Positions 11,265 to 22,302 of a DNA stretch of 32,197 bases are shown piece after piece. The notes under the pieces are model-generated. The model made no database searches and had not been told where the DNA came from. It worked only from the letters and a program-made list of their open reading frames with translations. Where the stretch lies: IMG/VR virus record IMGVR_UViG_3300034198_006241, positions 1 through 32,197 of that record; one strand, given 5' to 3'. The first letter of the stretch is position 1; every line of letters begins with the position of its first letter. The translations under genes and the position numbers were made by a program. The stretch comes from a virus.

Positions 11265-11720
11265 CTATTTATTGTTTTTTTTGTGTTTATTAATAAGTTG
11301 TGCCATCAGGCTTGCCGCACTTGTCGGCATACCGTCTGTTTTGGTTGCGTTTGATGTTTCAATAATTACCGCTGTTTTGTTTACTGCGATACTATCAAGC
11401 ATTGATTTAGTAGCTTCAAAGTTTGCTATTGCTTGGTTTTTCCAAGTGGCTATAACTTCAGCTTTATTTTCTACCTTGCCCGCTTCAACCGCTTCATTAA
11501 CAAGTACATCGGCTTGTGCTTCTTTTGCAGTAGCTTCAACTGCTGCATTTTCATTTTCCATTTTAGCAATACGAGCCTTTAAGGCTTCGTTTTCTTCTAT
11601 TGCAGCTTCGAGGTTATTTTTAACTTCGGCTGCTTTGTTTTCAATAGCTGATATGGCTTCGCAAACGCTATCCTCAGACGCATCTTGTACCAAGCCCAAC
11701 TTGTTTGTTACTTTTATCAT
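11265..11720 (-). CDS. Putative nested scaffold protein from internal start
   Basis: Met208 of the protease-scaffold gene starts a segment MIKVTNKLGL that looks like a natural protein N-terminus and is preceded by an A/T-rich leader (AATAAAACAAAA before ATG) like genuine starts elsewhere in this genome. Translation from here would give a 151-residue, coiled-coil scaffold without the protease domain, analogous to lambda Nu3 inside gene C. This is an inference from sequence look and family precedent, not proof of an internal start. Confidence 0.35.
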   Translation of the reverse strand: MIKVTNKLGLVQDASEDSVCEAISAIENKAAEVKNNLEAAIEENEALKARIAKMENENAAVEATAKEAQADVLVNEAVEAGKVENKAEVIATWKNQAIANFEATKSMLDSIAVNKTAVIIETSNATKTDGMPTSAASLMAQLINKHKKNNK

Positions 11721-12341
11721 TTTTGTTTTATTTAATGAACTGTTTAGTATCTTATTTGCATAACTCCAAGCATCACGAGCCGACATAGATGATAACCTGC
11801 GTTTATTCATATCACCACTTTTAGTTATCTCATCACACATACCATATTGCATACATTCATCAGCATTTAACCAACTTTCCTCACTCATCATGTTACTAAC
11901 CTCATCGTAAGACTTGCTGCAACGGTTACTTATCATAGTGGTGATGCTGTTAGTAAACGCTTCAAGCCCTCTATCCTCTGTGCCACTTTCTAAATATGGC
12001 TTATGCATCATTAGGATAGCATAATCATTCATGTAACGCTTACGACCTGCTAGGAATATCCACCCTGCTGTTGAAGCCGCCACCCCTACGTTGTAGGTAT
12101 CTACTTTAGTTTTGGTTCTTAGGATAGCATTATAAATATTCATGCCATCCATGACGTTACCGCCTACGCTGTTAATCCAAACTTGAATGCGTTTTTTACC
12201 CATACCGTCAAGAGCCAGTAATTCATTAGCGAACTGGTCGCCCAATACGCCTATATTCCCTGCCTCATCTATGCCGATATGCTTGTCTATAAGCATTATC
12301 GGCTCATCTGCTAACTCGTCAATAGTATAGTTAAAGTACAT
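11265..12341 (-). CDS. ClpP-like prohead protease with C-terminal scaffold domain
   Basis: Residues 1-200 match the S14/ClpP-type prohead protease: a VWINSVGGNVMDGMNIYNAI block, the nucleophile region GVAASTAGW (Ser90), a MMHKPY block with His113 and a NADEC segment near residue 160 for the acid. Residues 215-280 are a long Glu/Lys/Ala coiled coil typical of internal scaffolds, and the C-terminus is basic. The gene therefore fuses protease and scaffold, as in lambda C/Nu3. An 8-bp inverted repeat overlaps the start codon. It lies just upstream of the major capsid gene. Confidence 0.85.
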   Translation of the reverse strand: MYFNYTIDELADEPIMLIDKHIGIDEAGNIGVLGDQFANELLALDGMGKKRIQVWINSVGGNVMDGMNIYNAILRTKTKVDTYNVGVAASTAGWIFLAGRKRYMNDYAILMMHKPYLESGTEDRGLEAFTNSITTMISNRCSKSYDEVSNMMSEESWLNADECMQYGMCDEITKSGDMNKRRLSSMSARDAWSYANKILNSSLNKTKMIKVTNKLGLVQDASEDSVCEAISAIENKAAEVKNNLEAAIEENEALKARIAKMENENAAVEATAKEAQADVLVNEAVEAGKVENKAEVIATWKNQAIANFEATKSMLDSIAVNKTAVIIETSNATKTDGMPTSAASLMAQLINKHKKNNK

Positions 12342-14430: not shown

Positions 14431-15278
14431 TATTGGGCTATAAATGTTAATGTGTCTGCAAAAGTATCTCCGCTATTATCTTCCTGTATGATATACCCCG
14501 CTACCGTTTGCCAGTTACGGGCTATTAATGTATTGTTTTCTACCAATAAATACCTTTCATCGGCTATTGTCGCATCTGCCCTAGCACCTACATTGTTTAA
14601 TACTACGTCATTAACGCCTGCAACGCCACGTATGACTGTTTCCAAGTCGCTCACCAGTATTACGCCGTTGAATGTCAGATTTGCCATATACGCCTCAATA
14701 GCGGCTATTACGTTAGCTTCTATTACTGCGCTGTATTGCCCCTGATAATATACTTGAGCCGCTACGTATAATCTGTCAGGGTCTAAGCTGATAACCTGAT
14801 AATTTGCGTTTACGTTTCCTATGGTATCTATATAGCTTTGTGCCGCTGCTTTCTCTAATGATGTCAACGCTTCGGGTGTTGTGCCTTTAGCTACCTTTAT
14901 TTGCACTACGTTATATATCTGCCTGTTAACGCTGCATCGTGTTATGATTTGCATGGTACTATTAACGGTAGGATAATAATATGCAAATGTGCTTGTATTC
15001 AATTGCACTATCTGCGGTGTGGTAGCATCATATTGAAAATTGAACATTTGCGCTTGTACCCATGCGGCATTCCCTGCGGGTGCTGCATCTACTATTGCCT
15101 GTACGTTATCTTTCTCCAAACCCATTAACTGCTCGAAGGTAGCTTGTGCCGTTGCTACAATATATGCCCACAATCTCCATATAGCCCTACGGCTTGTAGA
15201 TGTAAGGCTGTTAAGGTCGTTTTCAGCTTCCTTTGCGGCTATAATGTTTTGATATATTTCTTCTATTGAGCGTGCCAT
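14430..15278 (-). CDS. Baseplate J-like protein (gpJ/gp47)
   Basis: The 282-residue protein has the gpJ layout: an N-terminal helical domain with RAIWRLWAYIVATAQATFEQLM, then the alternating segment (VQLNTSTFAYYYPTVNSTMQIITRCSVNR), and the C-terminal YVAAQVYYQGQ...VIAAIEAYMANLTFNGVILVSDLETVIRGVAGVNDV, which is the most conserved part of the family. It should form the baseplate wedge ring with the gp25-like protein. It is encoded far from gp25, on the other side of the capsid genes, which is an unusual gene order. Confidence 0.75.
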   Translation of the reverse strand: MARSIEEIYQNIIAAKEAENDLNSLTSTSRRAIWRLWAYIVATAQATFEQLMGLEKDNVQAIVDAAPAGNAAWVQAQMFNFQYDATTPQIVQLNTSTFAYYYPTVNSTMQIITRCSVNRQIYNVVQIKVAKGTTPEALTSLEKAAAQSYIDTIGNVNANYQVISLDPDRLYVAAQVYYQGQYSAVIEANVIAAIEAYMANLTFNGVILVSDLETVIRGVAGVNDVVLNNVGARADATIADERYLLVENNTLIARNWQTVAGYIIQEDNSGDTFADTLTFIAQ

Positions 15279-15817
15279 TATTTATTTTTTAAGAACGGGT
15301 TGGGATTATATCCGCCCGTTAATATTAATGTAGTCGGTGGTGTTGTTTCTATCCAATCGGTACTATCCGCATCATACGGGCTGCCTTTAGTATCTACAAA
15401 GCCCGCTTTAAATTCTACGATGTAGTGATATACATTTGTATGCTCATAATCTTGGTACTCCTGATTGTACATCAAGTTGCCAAAATTAGTGGGCTTTATT
15501 CCTGTTAAATATTTCTTTACCGCATCTCTATAATCAAATACATTTAAATTCTGGTCTAATGTGCCATCAGCCGCATCTAATTCAACGTGTACAATGTGTA
15601 TTCGTATAATGTAGTCAGTTTGCGTTATGCCTGCTGATAGATTTAATGTTTCGATTGGTTCAAGCTCTAAAAATGTCGCAGGGCAATTAAATGAATACCC
15701 CGAACCATCTACAAGCCTATTCGCATGGTCATTCCATATGGCAATGTAATTGAACTGCCCTGAATTAGTAAGGGCTGTTAGTATATCTTGTATGCCTTGC
15801 TTTATCAGGCTTGCCAT
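15278..15817 (-). CDS. Neck / tail terminator-like protein
   Basis: The 179-residue protein begins with a helix (LIKQGIQDILTAL) followed by a strand with YIAIWNDHANRL and a PATFLELEPIETLNL segment, a make-up resembling head-tail completion or tail terminator proteins of the gp37/gpU type. It overlaps the gpG-like gene upstream by 13 nt and gpJ by one base. The assignment depends mostly on position after gpG and before baseplate genes. Confidence 0.45.
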   Translation of the reverse strand: MASLIKQGIQDILTALTNSGQFNYIAIWNDHANRLVDGSGYSFNCPATFLELEPIETLNLSAGITQTDYIIRIHIVHVELDAADGTLDQNLNVFDYRDAVKKYLTGIKPTNFGNLMYNQEYQDYEHTNVYHYIVEFKAGFVDTKGSPYDADSTDWIETTPPTTLILTGGYNPNPFLKNK

Positions 15818-16245
15818 ATCTTGTCTATTGTTTTACTTATCAATTCTTTTTGCTTAGCTCTCAATCTTGCACTATCCCCCATGTATTGCCGCTTTTGTAA
15901 TGTTATACCATCATTCTGGTTAGCGGCGTATGGCAAATTTACCTCTAATTTTATCATCTGCCAAGTGGCTATTTTCTTACTATTCGATACCGCCCTTCTC
16001 AATCTACCTGTGCCTATCAATATAGGTTTACTTCTTCTGCTTAGTCCCTTAGTTTTTGGATACCTATACGCCTTAGTACCTGGTATTCTACGTTGAACCT
16101 CTTTCCATTTCTCGCCGTCAAATCCTTGTTCTGTAAAGTTCTTATCAAATTCCTTTTCAGCTTGATTGGCAAGTAATATCGGAAGCTGTCTTTTTAGCTG
16201 CTCCATGTTATTGCGCACCCTGTCAAAGTTGAATTTATTATCCAT
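15805..16245 (-). CDS. Virion morphogenesis protein, Mu gpG-like
   Basis: This basic 146-residue protein carries the hallmarks of the phage virion morphogenesis (gpG/tail completion) family: an N-terminal helix, FTEQGFDGEKWKEVQRR, a central ILIGTGRLRRAVSNS motif, and an INLPYAANQNDG-like strand (here EVNLPYAANQNDG). The GTGRLRRAV motif is the most diagnostic. Members act at the head-tail junction. It overlaps the ferritin-like gene by 8 nt. Confidence 0.7.
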   Translation of the reverse strand: MDNKFNFDRVRNNMEQLKRQLPILLANQAEKEFDKNFTEQGFDGEKWKEVQRRIPGTKAYRYPKTKGLSRRSKPILIGTGRLRRAVSNSKKIATWQMIKLEVNLPYAANQNDGITLQKRQYMGDSARLRAKQKELISKTIDKIWQA

Positions 16246-16729
16246 TCAAATGTTCATCAAATTCTAATAATGCCGCTTCGTTAGTGCCGCATAATGACAG
16301 CCTAGCCAACAGGTCACCATACTCACCCACGCTTTGACGTTGTATCTCTACAAAGCCCTGCAAATGTCCAAACACTTCAATGTCTTTAGTCAATGCGGCA
16401 GATGTTGCAGCCTTGTAATCCTTGCATAATCCATACTCGGTATCAAAAGCCATTTGAAACGCCTCATTAATACTTTTCGGTGTTGGTCCGCTTGGTATAG
16501 GTGCTAATCTTGGAGATACGTTTACATCGTTTAAGAAATCTATATGCTTCTGATAATGCTCGCCTTCGCTTGCACTTTCAGCTAAGAAATACTTTTGCGC
16601 TCCAAAATATCCTATCTGTTGCATAGCATTAGCCAATGACCGATAAAAATATTGTGCGTACAGTTCTTTGTTTACAAATGTTTCAAGCATAGCTATTAGC
16701 TCACTTGATATTAATGGTTGCTTATTCAT
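16238..16729 (-). CDS. Ferritin-like (ferroxidase-fold) protein
   Basis: From the ATG at 16729, which overlaps the gpF-like stop as ATGAATAA, the gene encodes 163 residues (an ATG at 16753 would add eight). By-eye alignment with E. coli FtnA runs through all four helices: VNKELYAQYFYRSL, then YFLAESASEGEHYQKHIDFLNDV, FQMAFDTEYGLCKDY and HLQGFVEIQ. Ferroxidase ligands match at Glu22 (FtnA E17), Glu55 (E50), His58 (H53), Glu98 (E94) and Gln130 (Q127). FtnA E49, E126, E129 and E130 appear as Ser, Ile, Gln and Ser, so site A is intact while sites B/C are weakened. It lies between gpF- and gpG-like head genes; a virion or iron-storage role is inference. Confidence 0.75.
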   Translation of the reverse strand: MNKQPLISSELIAMLETFVNKELYAQYFYRSLANAMQQIGYFGAQKYFLAESASEGEHYQKHIDFLNDVNVSPRLAPIPSGPTPKSINEAFQMAFDTEYGLCKDYKAATSAALTKDIEVFGHLQGFVEIQRQSVGEYGDLLARLSLCGTNEAALLEFDEHLNG

Positions 16730-17477
16730 CTGTGTCTGGTATTGGTAATCCAAAATTGTTCTCCCCTAAGTCTTTAGGCACTAATTGAAAATATGGATGG
16801 TCCTCATTAAATATCACTTTATCCTTACCCACATTCCCGATAAATACATCATCCATTTCGTGTACCGTGCTTGGTGGGTTTTGCGTTAACTTAATATCTT
16901 CATCTTCCTGTAATACCACACACATACAATTATAATGATTAGGCGGATAATATGTATCCCAAAAACTATCTGTTGCAGGCAATACCGTACCGTCTAAATC
17001 TGCACATATCGGACATGCCACTTCGGTAGTACTATACCGTAAGTTAGGAAGCGTATCAATATCATCTGTTATCACTACCCACTTAGCCGCCATTTCTGCC
17101 GATGCTAATGTGGTGTTATATTCTGATTTCAGATAATCAAGATTGTAAATATCATATAATGCCATTGCATCTTTCTTAAATTCTGCAAATGACTTTATCG
17201 CATCGCCATCCATTAATAAATCAGTCATACCACGCACCTCTACATATGTCTTTGCTGCGCTGAACATATATATGTTATCTCGCAGTTCTTTTAATGTGGC
17301 GTAGTCTGTTTTGCCTTCTGTGTAGTCTATCAATGAACCGCCAAAACCCTTATACAATCCTTTCTTCAGATAATCAGCAATAGCAAAATACAAGCCCTCA
17401 GGCAATGCATCTTCTGTAATGCCACCGTTGTAAATGCCATCAAGCAAAGCCTCTATTTGTTTGTCGGTGTATTTCAT
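16722..17477 (-). CDS. Minor head protein, Mu gpF-like (head morphogenesis)
   Basis: The C-terminal third of this 251-residue protein has the gpF/SPP1 gp7 signature: a CPICADLDGTVLP motif (residues 155-167), then FWDTYYPPNHYNCMC (172-186), combining two Cys pairs and the PPN-HYNC block. The N-terminal part has helical segments with a SAAKTYVEVRGMTDLL stretch. In Mu, gpF is a minor head protein next to the portal involved in head assembly and ejection. Gene order portal-(small)-F-(ferritin)-G supports the call. Confidence 0.75.
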   Translation of the reverse strand: MKYTDKQIEALLDGIYNGGITEDALPEGLYFAIADYLKKGLYKGFGGSLIDYTEGKTDYATLKELRDNIYMFSAAKTYVEVRGMTDLLMDGDAIKSFAEFKKDAMALYDIYNLDYLKSEYNTTLASAEMAAKWVVITDDIDTLPNLRYSTTEVACPICADLDGTVLPATDSFWDTYYPPNHYNCMCVVLQEDEDIKLTQNPPSTVHEMDDVFIGNVGKDKVIFNEDHPYFQLVPKDLGENNFGLPIPDTDE

Positions 17478-17717: not shown

Positions 17718-19058
17718 TCAATGTTTATTACTATAAATCTGTTTCAACCTATTTTGCACCGCTTCATTTAGCTTAACCTTTGGCATTACAGGTAACGGCT
17801 CTGCCTTGTCTACTTTTATCCCTGTGCGCTCGGTAAAGTATTCCCAATCTGGTTGACCGCCCGCATCCTTTATAGTCTTAAATAAATTAGCTGTAATTTG
17901 ATTGCTTTCATCTTCCCTACGCCTGAATTCTTCTACTTCTTCGTCGTTCTTAAATTCAAAATGCAGTCCCTGTGGTATCTTAATACCTAACCTTATTAAC
18001 TTCGGTATCAGCGTATCATTTACTATGCTTTCTATATTGCGGCATAGCTTTATTTGCTTATCACGCAGTGCCCTGAATATAGGGCTATCTTCGCCTTGAC
18101 TTGCTCCAAGCTTGCCCGCTGTACTATCTAACGCATCGGCATGACCGAGTATTACCTTACTAATATACTGTTGGCAACGTTTCTCTAAACTTTCATATCC
18201 TTTATATCCATTACCGCCTAATGCCGTTTCTAAAAACTCGATACTATCTTGCTCATCAATGATAGCCCAACCACTTGAACCCATCATGCGCAGGGCTTCT
18301 TCAAGTACTGCCCTTTCATCTTCGTTGGTTTTATTTGTCTTACCAACTCTAAACGGCTGCGCAAATAGCTCTACAAAATCCCCGTTAAAGCCTAATACAT
18401 TGCGTAGGAATATCTCATATATAGCTACCTTATACAAAATGCCATATCCTACTGGACTTATAGCCGTTTCTGTTGGTGTTGATACCCATACATGCCAATC
18501 AGCATATGGTTCATCTAAGAAGCTAACGCCACTCAACGAATATACAAATGGTGATACCTGTAATCTATCAGGGCTAATATTTTGCCTCTTGATTATAGTT
18601 AGGTCGGGGAATTTATTATTTACTATATTTCCCAATGATATAAGCTGATAACCAAAGAAATCAGCATCAAGGGAATAATTAATAAACTTATAAAACCATT
18701 GTGTCTGGAAATACTTAGTCCATTCTTCGTTTTCCTTTCCTGTTGCATCACATACCTTAAAATCTTTTAGTAATACCAAGTCTTTATATCGCTCCATTGC
18801 TGCTGCCACATGCCCGTTGTTTGTAGTATCTAAAAACAACTGTTGCATACGCACCCTATGCGGATAGTATGCAAGCTCGGCTTCATTCAACGCATTACGC
18901 CATGATGCTACATCTTGCCTGATACGTTGCAACTGAACATTTGCAATATATCGGTTAAGGTTCTTGTCCGCTTGCATGCCCGTTTCACGTGGTGCGATAC
19001 TTTGCGGAGCGTAGTCGGGAATTATATAGTTTGCTATTCTTTTTAAGATGTTAGCCAT
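17718..19058 (-). CDS. Portal protein, DUF935 / Mu gp29-like
   Basis: The 446-residue product matches the DUF935 portal family: a VASWRNALNEAE...RVRMQQLFLDTTNNGHVAAAMERYKD N-terminal region, a GFNGDFVELFAQPFRVGKTNKTNEDERAVLEEALRMMGSSGWAIIDE central block, and a GHADALDSTAGKLGASQ block, then LRLIPKLIRLGI-like stem and EEFRRREDESNQ. It forms the dodecameric DNA channel of the head. It overlaps the connector gene by one base and begins the Mu-like head module. Confidence 0.85.
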   Translation of the reverse strand: MANILKRIANYIIPDYAPQSIAPRETGMQADKNLNRYIANVQLQRIRQDVASWRNALNEAELAYYPHRVRMQQLFLDTTNNGHVAAAMERYKDLVLLKDFKVCDATGKENEEWTKYFQTQWFYKFINYSLDADFFGYQLISLGNIVNNKFPDLTIIKRQNISPDRLQVSPFVYSLSGVSFLDEPYADWHVWVSTPTETAISPVGYGILYKVAIYEIFLRNVLGFNGDFVELFAQPFRVGKTNKTNEDERAVLEEALRMMGSSGWAIIDEQDSIEFLETALGGNGYKGYESLEKRCQQYISKVILGHADALDSTAGKLGASQGEDSPIFRALRDKQIKLCRNIESIVNDTLIPKLIRLGIKIPQGLHFEFKNDEEVEEFRRREDESNQITANLFKTIKDAGGQPDWEYFTERTGIKVDKAEPLPVMPKVKLNEAVQNRLKQIYSNKH

Positions 19059-19986: not shown

Positions 19987-22302
19987 TTAATAAATATGCT
20001 TATTATAGTTTTTGCCAGTTGTCGGGCGAATAATTGAGCCCCGCTGCCATGCACTAAACTCTGAACCGAATGCTGAACAAATCATATAGTCATTGCTGTC
20101 CGAACAATTATGCACAAGTATTCCATTTGCAAAATACTCATGTACATCCTGAACCATTATATCATAAACCTGCCTTTTGTTTTCTGTATACTCTTGCGTT
20201 AATCCTGTTTTTACATCTTGCTGAACAGTATTTTGCCTCTCTAGTTGAAACCGTTTCAAATCCTTTGCCGCATGCATTACAGTTTTGCTTTCTTCGCTTA
20301 CTTTCCATGATTTTATGCATATGTTGTTTATGCCAATCCCTGCCAACTGAAGATTTATGCCATTCTTTAGCTTTTTCTCTTGCCTTATCGTTAAGTATTG
20401 ATGTTTTATATTGTTTAACTTCGTCAGATAGTTCGTTATAATGCATTCTAAGGTGTTCAGAACCCTTGACGCATTCAAGATTTTCGATATTGTTGTTAAG
20501 CGGATTGCCATCAACGTGGTGAATATGATATCCTTTAGGTATTTCACCTTTGGTAATAGTCCATAAATATCTGTGATATCTTTCTTTTTTTCGTACCCCG
20601 TTAATTTTAACCCATCCCGAAAAATATACTTTATCGGAGCGTCTTGGACTATCTTGGTTTCTAACAAATCGGTATCCGTTAAATTCAATACATTCAATTT
20701 CTTGTTGCATATTTTATTTTCTTCAAATATACAAAAAGTATGCGAACCTATCAAATGCCCTATGTTTTTAAATCCTTGTTTTTTTGTCCAGAATTTATGG
20801 CCTGGGGTGCATGTTATTTTTTTATCCCCTATACTATACGTATTGACATTTTTATATCCATTATCAAAAACTTTTAATACTGGCTTATATCCCTGTCTGG
20901 TTAAAACCAAATCCCCTATTTGTATTTCGTCTATTCTTTTTCCTCCTGTCATTGTAGTTATCATTATTTCACCTACAAAACAATGTCCATATTTCTCATA
21001 GCTTACTCCTGTATCTTGGTTTTTAGTTTTGATTTTTGCTTTAGTGCCGTCACTTGCCATTTTCAAAAACATATAATCCGCTATTGTGTTAGTGCATTTA
21101 TCACTTATCACAAAGTCTAATCCTTGAGCACGTTCGCTGAATACGGCATTAATAAACTGTCCTCTGGTATGTACTGGTGGTGCTACCTTCTGATATTTCA
21201 TTTGAGGTCTAAACTCTGCCAATTCTTGTCCTATTATTCTAAAATCATTATACCCCTTTTCAGTTCTTGTATCTTCATGCAATCCCGCAGGGTCGCCATA
21301 AATAAATACCCCCGCTTGATGCCCCCTATATCTTTTACAAAATTCCCGACATGCGAGGTCGGTACGATTATTAGGCGTAGGTAAACATATCTCATCTATC
21401 TGCGTTGCTATCTTGCCTGTTATTTGCCAAATGCATATCGTTACGTACGGGTTTACGTTAAAGTCAAATGTAACATGTAGGACCATAGATGGGTTATATC
21501 TGCAATCGGCTTGTGGCAATACATTCCTTGCTCTATCAAATCCCGAATAAAAATTACCATCGGTAGTACGATTACCCCACATTCCCAATACATAAATAGT
21601 GTAATAGTATGGGTTAGTGCGCTGAAGGTCTAATAATTGCGCCTTAAAGCTATCAGGTAGCCACTTATTATCCTTGTAGGTGCTTTGGTGTACGGTATAG
21701 GATGTTTCAAACGTCTTGCCGTCTCCGATGTCTATTATTGCTTTGTCGCTAAATGTGCCGTCTGGTTTATCCTTAAAAAACCTTTGCCAGAACCAATGCT
21801 CTGTATAGTCCCCGTCTACTTCGGGGTTAATGGTAAATATTTCCTGTAAATATGATGCCTTTTGTGTACGTATTGATGTGGTTATCGTTATAAAATCTCC
21901 TTCGTCTGGTATTTCTTCCTCATACCATACTCCTGTGGGGTCTTTTATTGATTTTAGTTTCTTAGGCTCATCACCACCACGACAAATGAATTTATTACCG
22001 TTAATGCAGCGTATCTCTAATGGGCTGACGTTGAATATAAATAAGTCCTGCAACCCCCATTCATACACAATATCTTTAATAGTTTGAAACTGGCTATCCT
22101 TGATTGTGTTGTATGTTTTACGATACAGAATAAAACGAAAATAGGGTTCAGTCAAACATCTTTTGATAAGTTTCTTAGCTGAAAAAACAGATTTAGAGCT
22201 ACCCCTACCCCCGTAACAAATCAAATATCTGTCCGTGTTTTTTATTAACGGTACAAATGATTCATTAATTAATTTATTCCATTCTGGTAATATTACTTTC
22301 AT
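19987..22302 (-). CDS. terL: Terminase large subunit precursor, interrupted by an intein
   Basis: The precursor has 771 residues; removing the intein (441-732) leaves a 479-residue terminase. The ATPase domain shows Walker A GGRGSSKS (31-38), Walker B GVWYEEE (124-130) and a TINP coupling motif (about 157-160). The nuclease domain has HVTFDFNVNP (Asp280), YGDPAG (Asp337) and, after splicing, a third acidic motif joined as YGH-CSDSNDY. Inteins typically sit in such conserved motifs. TerL pumps DNA into the head with TerS; it needs protein splicing to be functional. It directly overlaps the TerS stop by one base. Confidence 0.9.
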   Translation of the reverse strand: MKVILPEWNKLINESFVPLIKNTDRYLICYGGRGSSKSVFSAKKLIKRCLTEPYFRFILYRKTYNTIKDSQFQTIKDIVYEWGLQDLFIFNVSPLEIRCINGNKFICRGGDEPKKLKSIKDPTGVWYEEEIPDEGDFITITTSIRTQKASYLQEIFTINPEVDGDYTEHWFWQRFFKDKPDGTFSDKAIIDIGDGKTFETSYTVHQSTYKDNKWLPDSFKAQLLDLQRTNPYYYTIYVLGMWGNRTTDGNFYSGFDRARNVLPQADCRYNPSMVLHVTFDFNVNPYVTICIWQITGKIATQIDEICLPTPNNRTDLACREFCKRYRGHQAGVFIYGDPAGLHEDTRTEKGYNDFRIIGQELAEFRPQMKYQKVAPPVHTRGQFINAVFSERAQGLDFVISDKCTNTIADYMFLKMASDGTKAKIKTKNQDTGVSYEKYGHCFVGEIMITTMTGGKRIDEIQIGDLVLTRQGYKPVLKVFDNGYKNVNTYSIGDKKITCTPGHKFWTKKQGFKNIGHLIGSHTFCIFEENKICNKKLNVLNLTDTDLLETKIVQDAPIKYIFRDGLKLTGYEKKKDITDIYGLLPKVKYLKDIIFTTLMAIRLTTISKILNASRVLNTLECIITNYLTKLNNIKHQYLTIRQEKKLKNGINLQLAGIGINNICIKSWKVSEESKTVMHAAKDLKRFQLERQNTVQQDVKTGLTQEYTENKRQVYDIMVQDVHEYFANGILVHNCSDSNDYMICSAFGSEFSAWQRGSIIRPTTGKNYNKHIY
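20162..20710 (-). CDS. HNH homing endonuclease nested out of frame inside the intein
   Basis: The 182-residue product, read one base off the terL/intein frame, has an HNH_3-type core: RYHRYLWTITKGEIPKG (44-60), then YHIHHVDGNPLNNNIENLEC (61-80) with the His-His, Asp67, Asn and NLE residues. A C-terminal zinc finger has Cys144, Cys147, Cys162 and Cys166 (CNACG...YCSARC). It ends right at splicing block F. Its start ATG lies 14 nt after a -7 box and has a -33 box at proper spacing. It should cut intein-less terL and spread the intein. Confidence 0.85.
   Translation of the reverse strand: MQQEIECIEFNGYRFVRNQDSPRRSDKVYFSGWVKINGVRKKERYHRYLWTITKGEIPKGYHIHHVDGNPLNNNIENLECVKGSEHLRMHYNELSDEVKQYKTSILNDKAREKAKEWHKSSVGRDWHKQHMHKIMESKRRKQNCNACGKGFETVSTREAKYCSARCKNRINARVYRKQKAGL
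20724..20755 (-). promoter_or_regulatory. Bacteroidota promoter inside the intein driving the HNH gene
   Basis: On the minus strand TTTG (20755-20752), 20 nt, and TATATTTG (20731-20724) reproduce the Bacteroidota promoter consensus exactly. The HNH ATG follows 14 nt after the -7 box. The same bases encode FCIFEENK in the intein frame. Confidence 0.6.

Follow-up and report, generated by a model that had tools for sequence, protein, structure and literature searches.

What is a ferritin doing among the head genes of a phage? The window, the 32,197-base stretch analysed here and the whole of its IMG/VR record, carries on its minus strand a late-gene order of terminase (with an intein), portal, gpF-like, ferritin, gpG-like, gp37-like, baseplate-type and ClpP-type protease genes followed by further virion genes. 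Upstream of the ferritin lie the large terminase (19987..22302; PF04466, 1.1e-44), whose intein is matched by Intein_splicing at 1.2e-07, below cut-off, the Portal_Mu-type portal protein (17718..19058; PF06074, 4e-50) and a gpF-like (Phage_Mu_F) minor head protein (16722..17477; PF04233, 9.1e-11), which also matches PHROG 220 (1.1e-16), labelled 'minor head protein and DNA pilot'. By eye, an HNH-like ORF (20162-20710) is seen in another frame inside the intein-split terminase. Downstream lie the gpG-like neck or tail-completion protein (15805..16245; PHROG 26 'tail completion or Neck1 protein', 6.1e-12), a gp37-like gene (15278..15817; PHROG 6911, 1.2e-10, with PF09646 at 0.00099, below cut-off) and a ClpP-type head maturation protease (11265..12341; PF00574, 1.8e-26; PHROG 2976, 1.7e-40), all on the minus strand. 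The order portal-gpF-slot-gpG-gp37-J is conserved in relatives, the slot being the place between gpF and gpG that the ferritin fills here.

The ferritin gene occupies 16238..16729 of the minus strand and encodes 163 amino acids (coding part 16241-16729, stop codon 16238-16240). Translation probably begins with the ATG at 16729, M9 in the numbering of an earlier sequence-only reading of this DNA, rather than a TTG eight codons upstream, since most homologues start at the equivalent of this ATG and the TTG sits within the gpF C-terminus. That reading had placed the ORF, with overlapping ends, between gpF-like and gpG-like genes, and it does overlap each neighbour by 8 nt (16722-16729 with gpF-like, 16238-16245 with gpG-like). 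Overlaps of this size on both sides imply that the ferritin is probably translated together with gpF and gpG.

The protein is a true ferritin. It matches Pfam Ferritin PF00210 with an E-value of 1.4e-13, scoring 51.4 bits where 24.5 is the cut-off; 18/18 phage homologues also match this family, and a sequence search of the PDB returns bacterial ferritins (best E 2.6e-13). An AlphaFold2 single-chain model (pLDDT 95.4) is a four-helix bundle with a long BC crossover, helices A-D spanning 9-39, 42-68, 87-113 and 117-147, and a short C-terminal helix E at 151-161. Foldseek superposes the model on E. coli FtnA with a TM score of 0.92 and an rmsd of 1.1, VIA gives Z scores of 23-24 against bacterial ferritins, and against human H-ferritin Z is ~22.6 with an rmsd of 1.6 over 163 residues at ~24% identity. 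The sequence-only reading of a four-helix ferritin homologue in a head and neck gene block is thus upheld by profile search and by structure prediction, which points to no other four-helix family. The likeness to FtnA (NCBIfam NF007638) extends over the full length of the fold, to the first-shell ferroxidase residues and to helix E, and 18/18 phage ferritins match NF007638 at E ≤0.001. The window protein nevertheless scores 43.7 bits against an NF007638 equivalog cut-off of 178, which leaves it outside the bacterial FtnA subgroup, and it differs from FtnA in its ~25% identity, in the loss of the third-site glutamates and in being encoded in a phage head block. Single-sequence searches with the window ferritin found no relative in INPHARED or IMG/VR, where two INPHARED hits, weak at E 0.5 and 3, were discounted as chance, and among plasmid records found only ftnA of E. 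coli, Salmonella and Klebsiella or unannotated places. Its relatives were obtained only through portal and ferritin alignments.

The metal site can be read from an alignment of 18 phage and 43 bacterial ferritins, the latter comprising E. coli FtnA (L155) and 42 from genomes that share a phylum or family with G001, a Parafilimonas MAG (the genome of L026) with a related portal gene. E22, Y29, E55, H58, E98 and Q130 are identical in all 61 rows (18/18 phage, 43/43 bacterial), and we take them to be equivalent to the FtnA ferroxidase residues E17, Y24, E50, H53, E94 and Q127. Five of these, Glu22, Glu55, His58, Glu98 and Gln130 counted from M9, had been proposed as site A ligands from the sequence alone; they align with FtnA as proposed, and the loss of ligands among homologues that would have spoken against the proposal is not seen. 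Columns 54, 129, 132 and 133, presumably FtnA E49, E126, E129 and E130 of the third, C site, hold glutamate in 43/43 bacterial rows; the window has S, I, Q and S, and glutamate occurs in 2/18, 9/18, 2/18 and 0/18 phage rows, respectively. Phage ferritins, unlike bacterial FtnA, carry E51 (18/18, the bacterial rows having H or Q there) together with an (S/A)VG(E/F)YGD motif, in which VG (134-135) and YGD (137-139) are found in 18/18 and S133 and E136 in 16/18. The earlier suggestion that site B/C residues are replaced therefore stands for the bacterial third-site glutamates. Its corollary, that iron would be bound without fast oxidation, does not follow, because the third site alone is lost and the ligands of an H-chain centre, which we take to be of the E27/E62/H65/E107/Q141 type, are all retained. 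Animal H-chains have no third site, yet are fast ferroxidases. With an E/E/H/E/Q centre of this kind and a fold matching H-ferritin, the window protein appears to have a full diiron centre of the animal H-chain type.

How the slot is filled in related phages was determined from portal searches, which led to 86 loci (L015 was left out as it lies on the same contig as L002). The slot census covers the nearest phages only, the relatives taken being the best 80 of 150 in one search and the top 80 of at least 576 in another. A further 19/86 loci with a slot incompletely on the contig were left out, among them L011 with a DUF5856 protein and L051 with a cut ferritin. Two families, ferritin and DUF5856, were searched for, and other slot proteins were mostly classed by size. 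At the 67 loci where the slot is fully visible, 5 hold ferritin, 19 DUF5856, 43 neither and none both; in 46 clusters at 90% portal identity the counts are 4, 13 and 29 for ferritin, DUF5856 and neither. Among slots whose ORF reaches 110 aa, with gpF pieces disregarded, 24/30 hold ferritin or DUF5856 and 6/30 another protein. That the two families never occur together is not significant, chance alone giving ~18% with the census counts. With neither family in 43/67 slots, the function is dispensable in this phage group. The slot of Flavobacterium phage FPSV-S1 holds a Dcm methylase, and those of lotta8-1 and Peternella_1 hold small ORFs. The statement of the sequence-only reading that no standard head module contains a ferritin holds for textbook modules, though it has to be qualified by the presence of DUF5856, predicted to be ferritin-like, in 19/67 slots.

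Some further features of these slots were noted by eye. The slot proteins of L027 and L034 have a GIY-YIG-like look. In L085 the gpF-like protein of a ferritin-carrying phage (8283-10070, 595 aa) seems to contain an intein between conserved halves. A family of ~86-109 aa with a TGN..VDMVA....HY-like motif often stands directly before gpG, whether ferritin is present or not (L050 5084-5374, L085 10531-10836, L087 8869-9144, L036 9365-9625 and others); the members tested have no Pfam or PHROG match, and the family is absent from the window slot.

DUF5856 (PF19174) occupies in relatives the slot that the ferritin fills in the window, at ~120 rather than 163 aa, and profile comparison detected no sequence homology between the two. 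A representative slot protein (L002) matches PF19174 at 8.8e-17 and also PHROG 858, 'starvation-inducible transcriptional regulator'. This label appears to need correcting, since the family's proteins from the slot are modelled as Dps-like bundles and related proteins have been reported from virions. The model of another member (L016; pLDDT 94.5) is a four-helix bundle whose best VIA rows are Dps proteins, M. smegmatis Dps2 scoring Z 11.9 (rmsd 2.6, 117/119 residues) where the advised threshold for bundles is 13; Foldseek gives a weak match (E 0.5). Homology of DUF5856 to Dps was also sought by profile comparison and set aside as too weak: hhalign returns a probability of 0.9% and E 0.063 with an H-x-N stretch aligned, gpG and gpF controls giving E 0.38 and 0.41. 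H21, H30, D45 and E49 are invariant in 17/17 DUF5856 proteins, and the H30-D45-E49 spacing is, we assume, that of Dps H43-D58-E62. One DUF5856 member matches 313 INPHARED records, mostly phages of Salmonella, Enterobacter, Escherichia and Dickeya.

DUF5856 proteins have been published as present in the particles of two Ackermannviridae phages. Sajous1 gp217, which matches DUF5856 at 1.3e-28, was found by mass spectrometry of CsCl-purified phage with a count of 10 in the table of that report, where Phyre2 assigns it as 'Ferritin' with confidence 96.7 (PMC10892097). Its authors propose from gp217 a Ferrojan horse for Vi01-like phages, describe no TonB or FeoB dependence in the single Salmonella host tested, and caution that low peptide counts cannot tell virion proteins from debris (PMC10892097). 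LIMEstone1 ORF78, 91% identical to gp217 and noted in its record as 'confirmed structural protein', was detected with 3 unique peptides and 28% coverage according to the data given in PMC3296691. In both Sajous1 and LIMEstone1 the DUF5856 gene is not beside portal or major capsid genes, which counts against the reading preferred below. No paper using the name DUF5856 was found among the open-licence PMC papers searched, nor was virion mass spectrometry or an iron assay for any ferritin of the phage clade.

Beyond the nearest relatives, six slot ferritins were used to scan IMG/VR, which yielded 19 contigs. Ferritins of this kind are found in no fewer than four phage contexts, in some of which they lie next to portal or terminase genes. 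The ferritin lies in a window-type slot or directly between portal and gpG in 9/19 contigs (L052, L057, L097, L103, L105, L106, L107, L108 and L110) and outside it in 10/19. In L109 the gene stands immediately before a terminase (PHROG 6681, 5.2e-88) and a portal (PHROG 6547, 8.1e-67), and in L111 and L112 the neighbours resemble those of L109 in size and start. In L102 a single gene separates the ferritin from the portal that precedes it (PHROG 12082, 2e-160), and L101 looks similar. In L098, L099, L100 and L104 it precedes a very large protein of unknown PHROGs, as searched in L099. The nearest ferritin to that of the window, at 60% identity, is in the 91 kb record IMGVR_UViG_3300032282_003280 (L096), where the ferritin neighbours searched gave no structural call and the gene lies outside any recognisable head module. 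Queries with L101 and L109 matched only two unannotated 'Staphylococcus phage' records, neither of which entered the analysis; one of them is from wastewater.

Our preferred reading, in which our confidence is evenly balanced, is a late-made, ferroxidase-competent ferritin that keeps free iron off phage DNA and is in part virion-associated. The ferritin would be made late and coupled to the minor-head and neck genes through its overlapping frames. Its subunit, predicted to fold as an FtnA/H-type ferritin with a complete two-iron ferroxidase centre, would most likely assemble into a cage that oxidises and stores Fe(II), with the task of removing free iron from DNA during phage replication and packaging. 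A fraction would probably be attached to or inside the particle, as reported for DUF5856, the family of the same slot in relatives for which the ferritin may stand in. A virion role for the window ferritin gains in likelihood from the published detection of DUF5856 proteins in particles by mass spectrometry.

The main rival is an ordinary late ferritin that would reduce free iron and Fenton damage, never enter the particle and occupy the head slot merely as a highly expressed place. It too would retain all ferroxidase ligands, and the 10/19 contigs with ferritin outside the slot are consistent with it. Gut phages (Gratiaviridae and others) carry Dps-like and Mn-catalase genes that Benler et al. 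2021 read in this purely intracellular way (PMC8008677). Such a role is possible for the window ferritin though on balance unlikely, given that unrelated phages have their ferritin next to genes for portal, terminase, minor-head or neck proteins and that DUF5856, the commonest large slot occupant, is reported in the particles of two phages.

The position between gpF and gpG and the loss of the bacterial third-site glutamates might alternatively suggest that the bundle has been reused as a neck or minor-head part, with its iron site a relic. This is improbable, as a relic would not retain six ligand-site residues invariant across 18 divergent homologues, and the ferritin is not needed for assembly, most related phages being without the gene.

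A slot that takes unrelated genes could also have received a recently captured host ferritin, a moron of benefit only to the lysogen or host. The evolutionary record makes this very improbable. In a tree of the 18 phage and 43 bacterial rows, the phage ferritins fall on one side of a branch with support of 100/100 and a length of 1.81 changes per column, and are a virus-only clade apart from the 43 bacterial ferritins. There is no close cellular relative: matches to a model of the 18 phage rows occur in 191/395 genomes of the phylum of G001, the best reaching ~81 bits, whereas on a different model, of slot ferritins and built partly from their own sequences, the five full-length slot ferritins reach 248-289 bits. 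Recent host capture was accordingly rejected, with only distant ferritins in the 395 genomes and the 42 used in the tree separated from the phage rows. Two separate entries of ferritin into the slot, suggested by the grouping of the window with L096 in the tree, were considered and not adopted, one clade not being rejected (p-AU 0.151). The dN/dS ratio is 0.03-0.13 in 8/10 ferritin pairs (L098/L104 and L103/L056 being without a value), and the phage ferritins are therefore under purifying selection. They match PHROG 16594, which has no assigned function and, with true ferritins among its matches, appears to need correcting.

Most improbable of all is that particle-borne ferritin iron aids adsorption or entry through host iron-uptake receptors in the manner of the Ferrojan horse, as ferritin iron is enclosed in a closed shell, nothing in the window links the ferritin to a receptor-binding protein and the study of gp217 described above saw no TonB or FeoB dependence in its single Salmonella host.

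Ferritin-superfamily proteins of phages are in themselves on record and include, besides those of gut phages, a Dps-type protein of Lactobacillus phages (PMC6669764) and a 'bacterioferritin' of Flandersviridae (PMC11780533). The phage Dps-like proteins are likewise iron proteins of the superfamily but, by the descriptions available in these sources, are of the Dps family and not of the FtnA type. A few models of viral ferritins are listed in BFVD, and the one closest in identity is a fragment at 31%. Three uncultured phage proteins there (A0A6J7XDU5, A0A6J7WIS1 and A0A6J5N5R9) match the ferritin model weakly; their annotations are prohead protease or large Dps-domain protein (333-679 aa), which has the look of a fusion between ferritin-like domains and head proteins. 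No description of a phage-specific ferritin clade or of this head slot was found in the open-licence PMC papers searched. Phage Dps and viral ferritins are thus already known; a clade specific to phages and a head slot shared with DUF5856, not seen in those papers, are apparently new.

For the phage ferritin, the fold, ligands, clade, slot and purifying selection are established computationally, and its place in the head slot hints at phages for which carrying or handling iron belongs to making particles. A broader reading, which we consider rather doubtful, is that a ferritin-superfamily protein, either ferritin or DUF5856, is built into the HK97-type head or neck, where it would deliver or withhold iron near the packaged DNA, two ferritin-like families filling the gpF-gpG slot for one job. 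Encapsulins are cellular compartments without DNA packaging. They have an HK97-type shell, and iron-storage cargo is among those described. If the broader reading is true, the phage would provide a viral parallel of ferritin-loaded encapsulins. The finding also relates phage heads to the pattern known from encapsulins, in which an HK97 shell is paired with a ferritin-like protein. It bears, too, on the wider idea behind the Ferrojan horse, that of iron in phage particles, which has so far had little molecular evidence, by naming a candidate protein that is encoded among head genes and keeps its ferroxidase centre intact, and by offering a family signature. PHROG 16594 and PHROG 858 thereby gain likely functions, and cultured phages of the Ackermannviridae carry the DUF5856 counterpart, which is open to deletion and assay.
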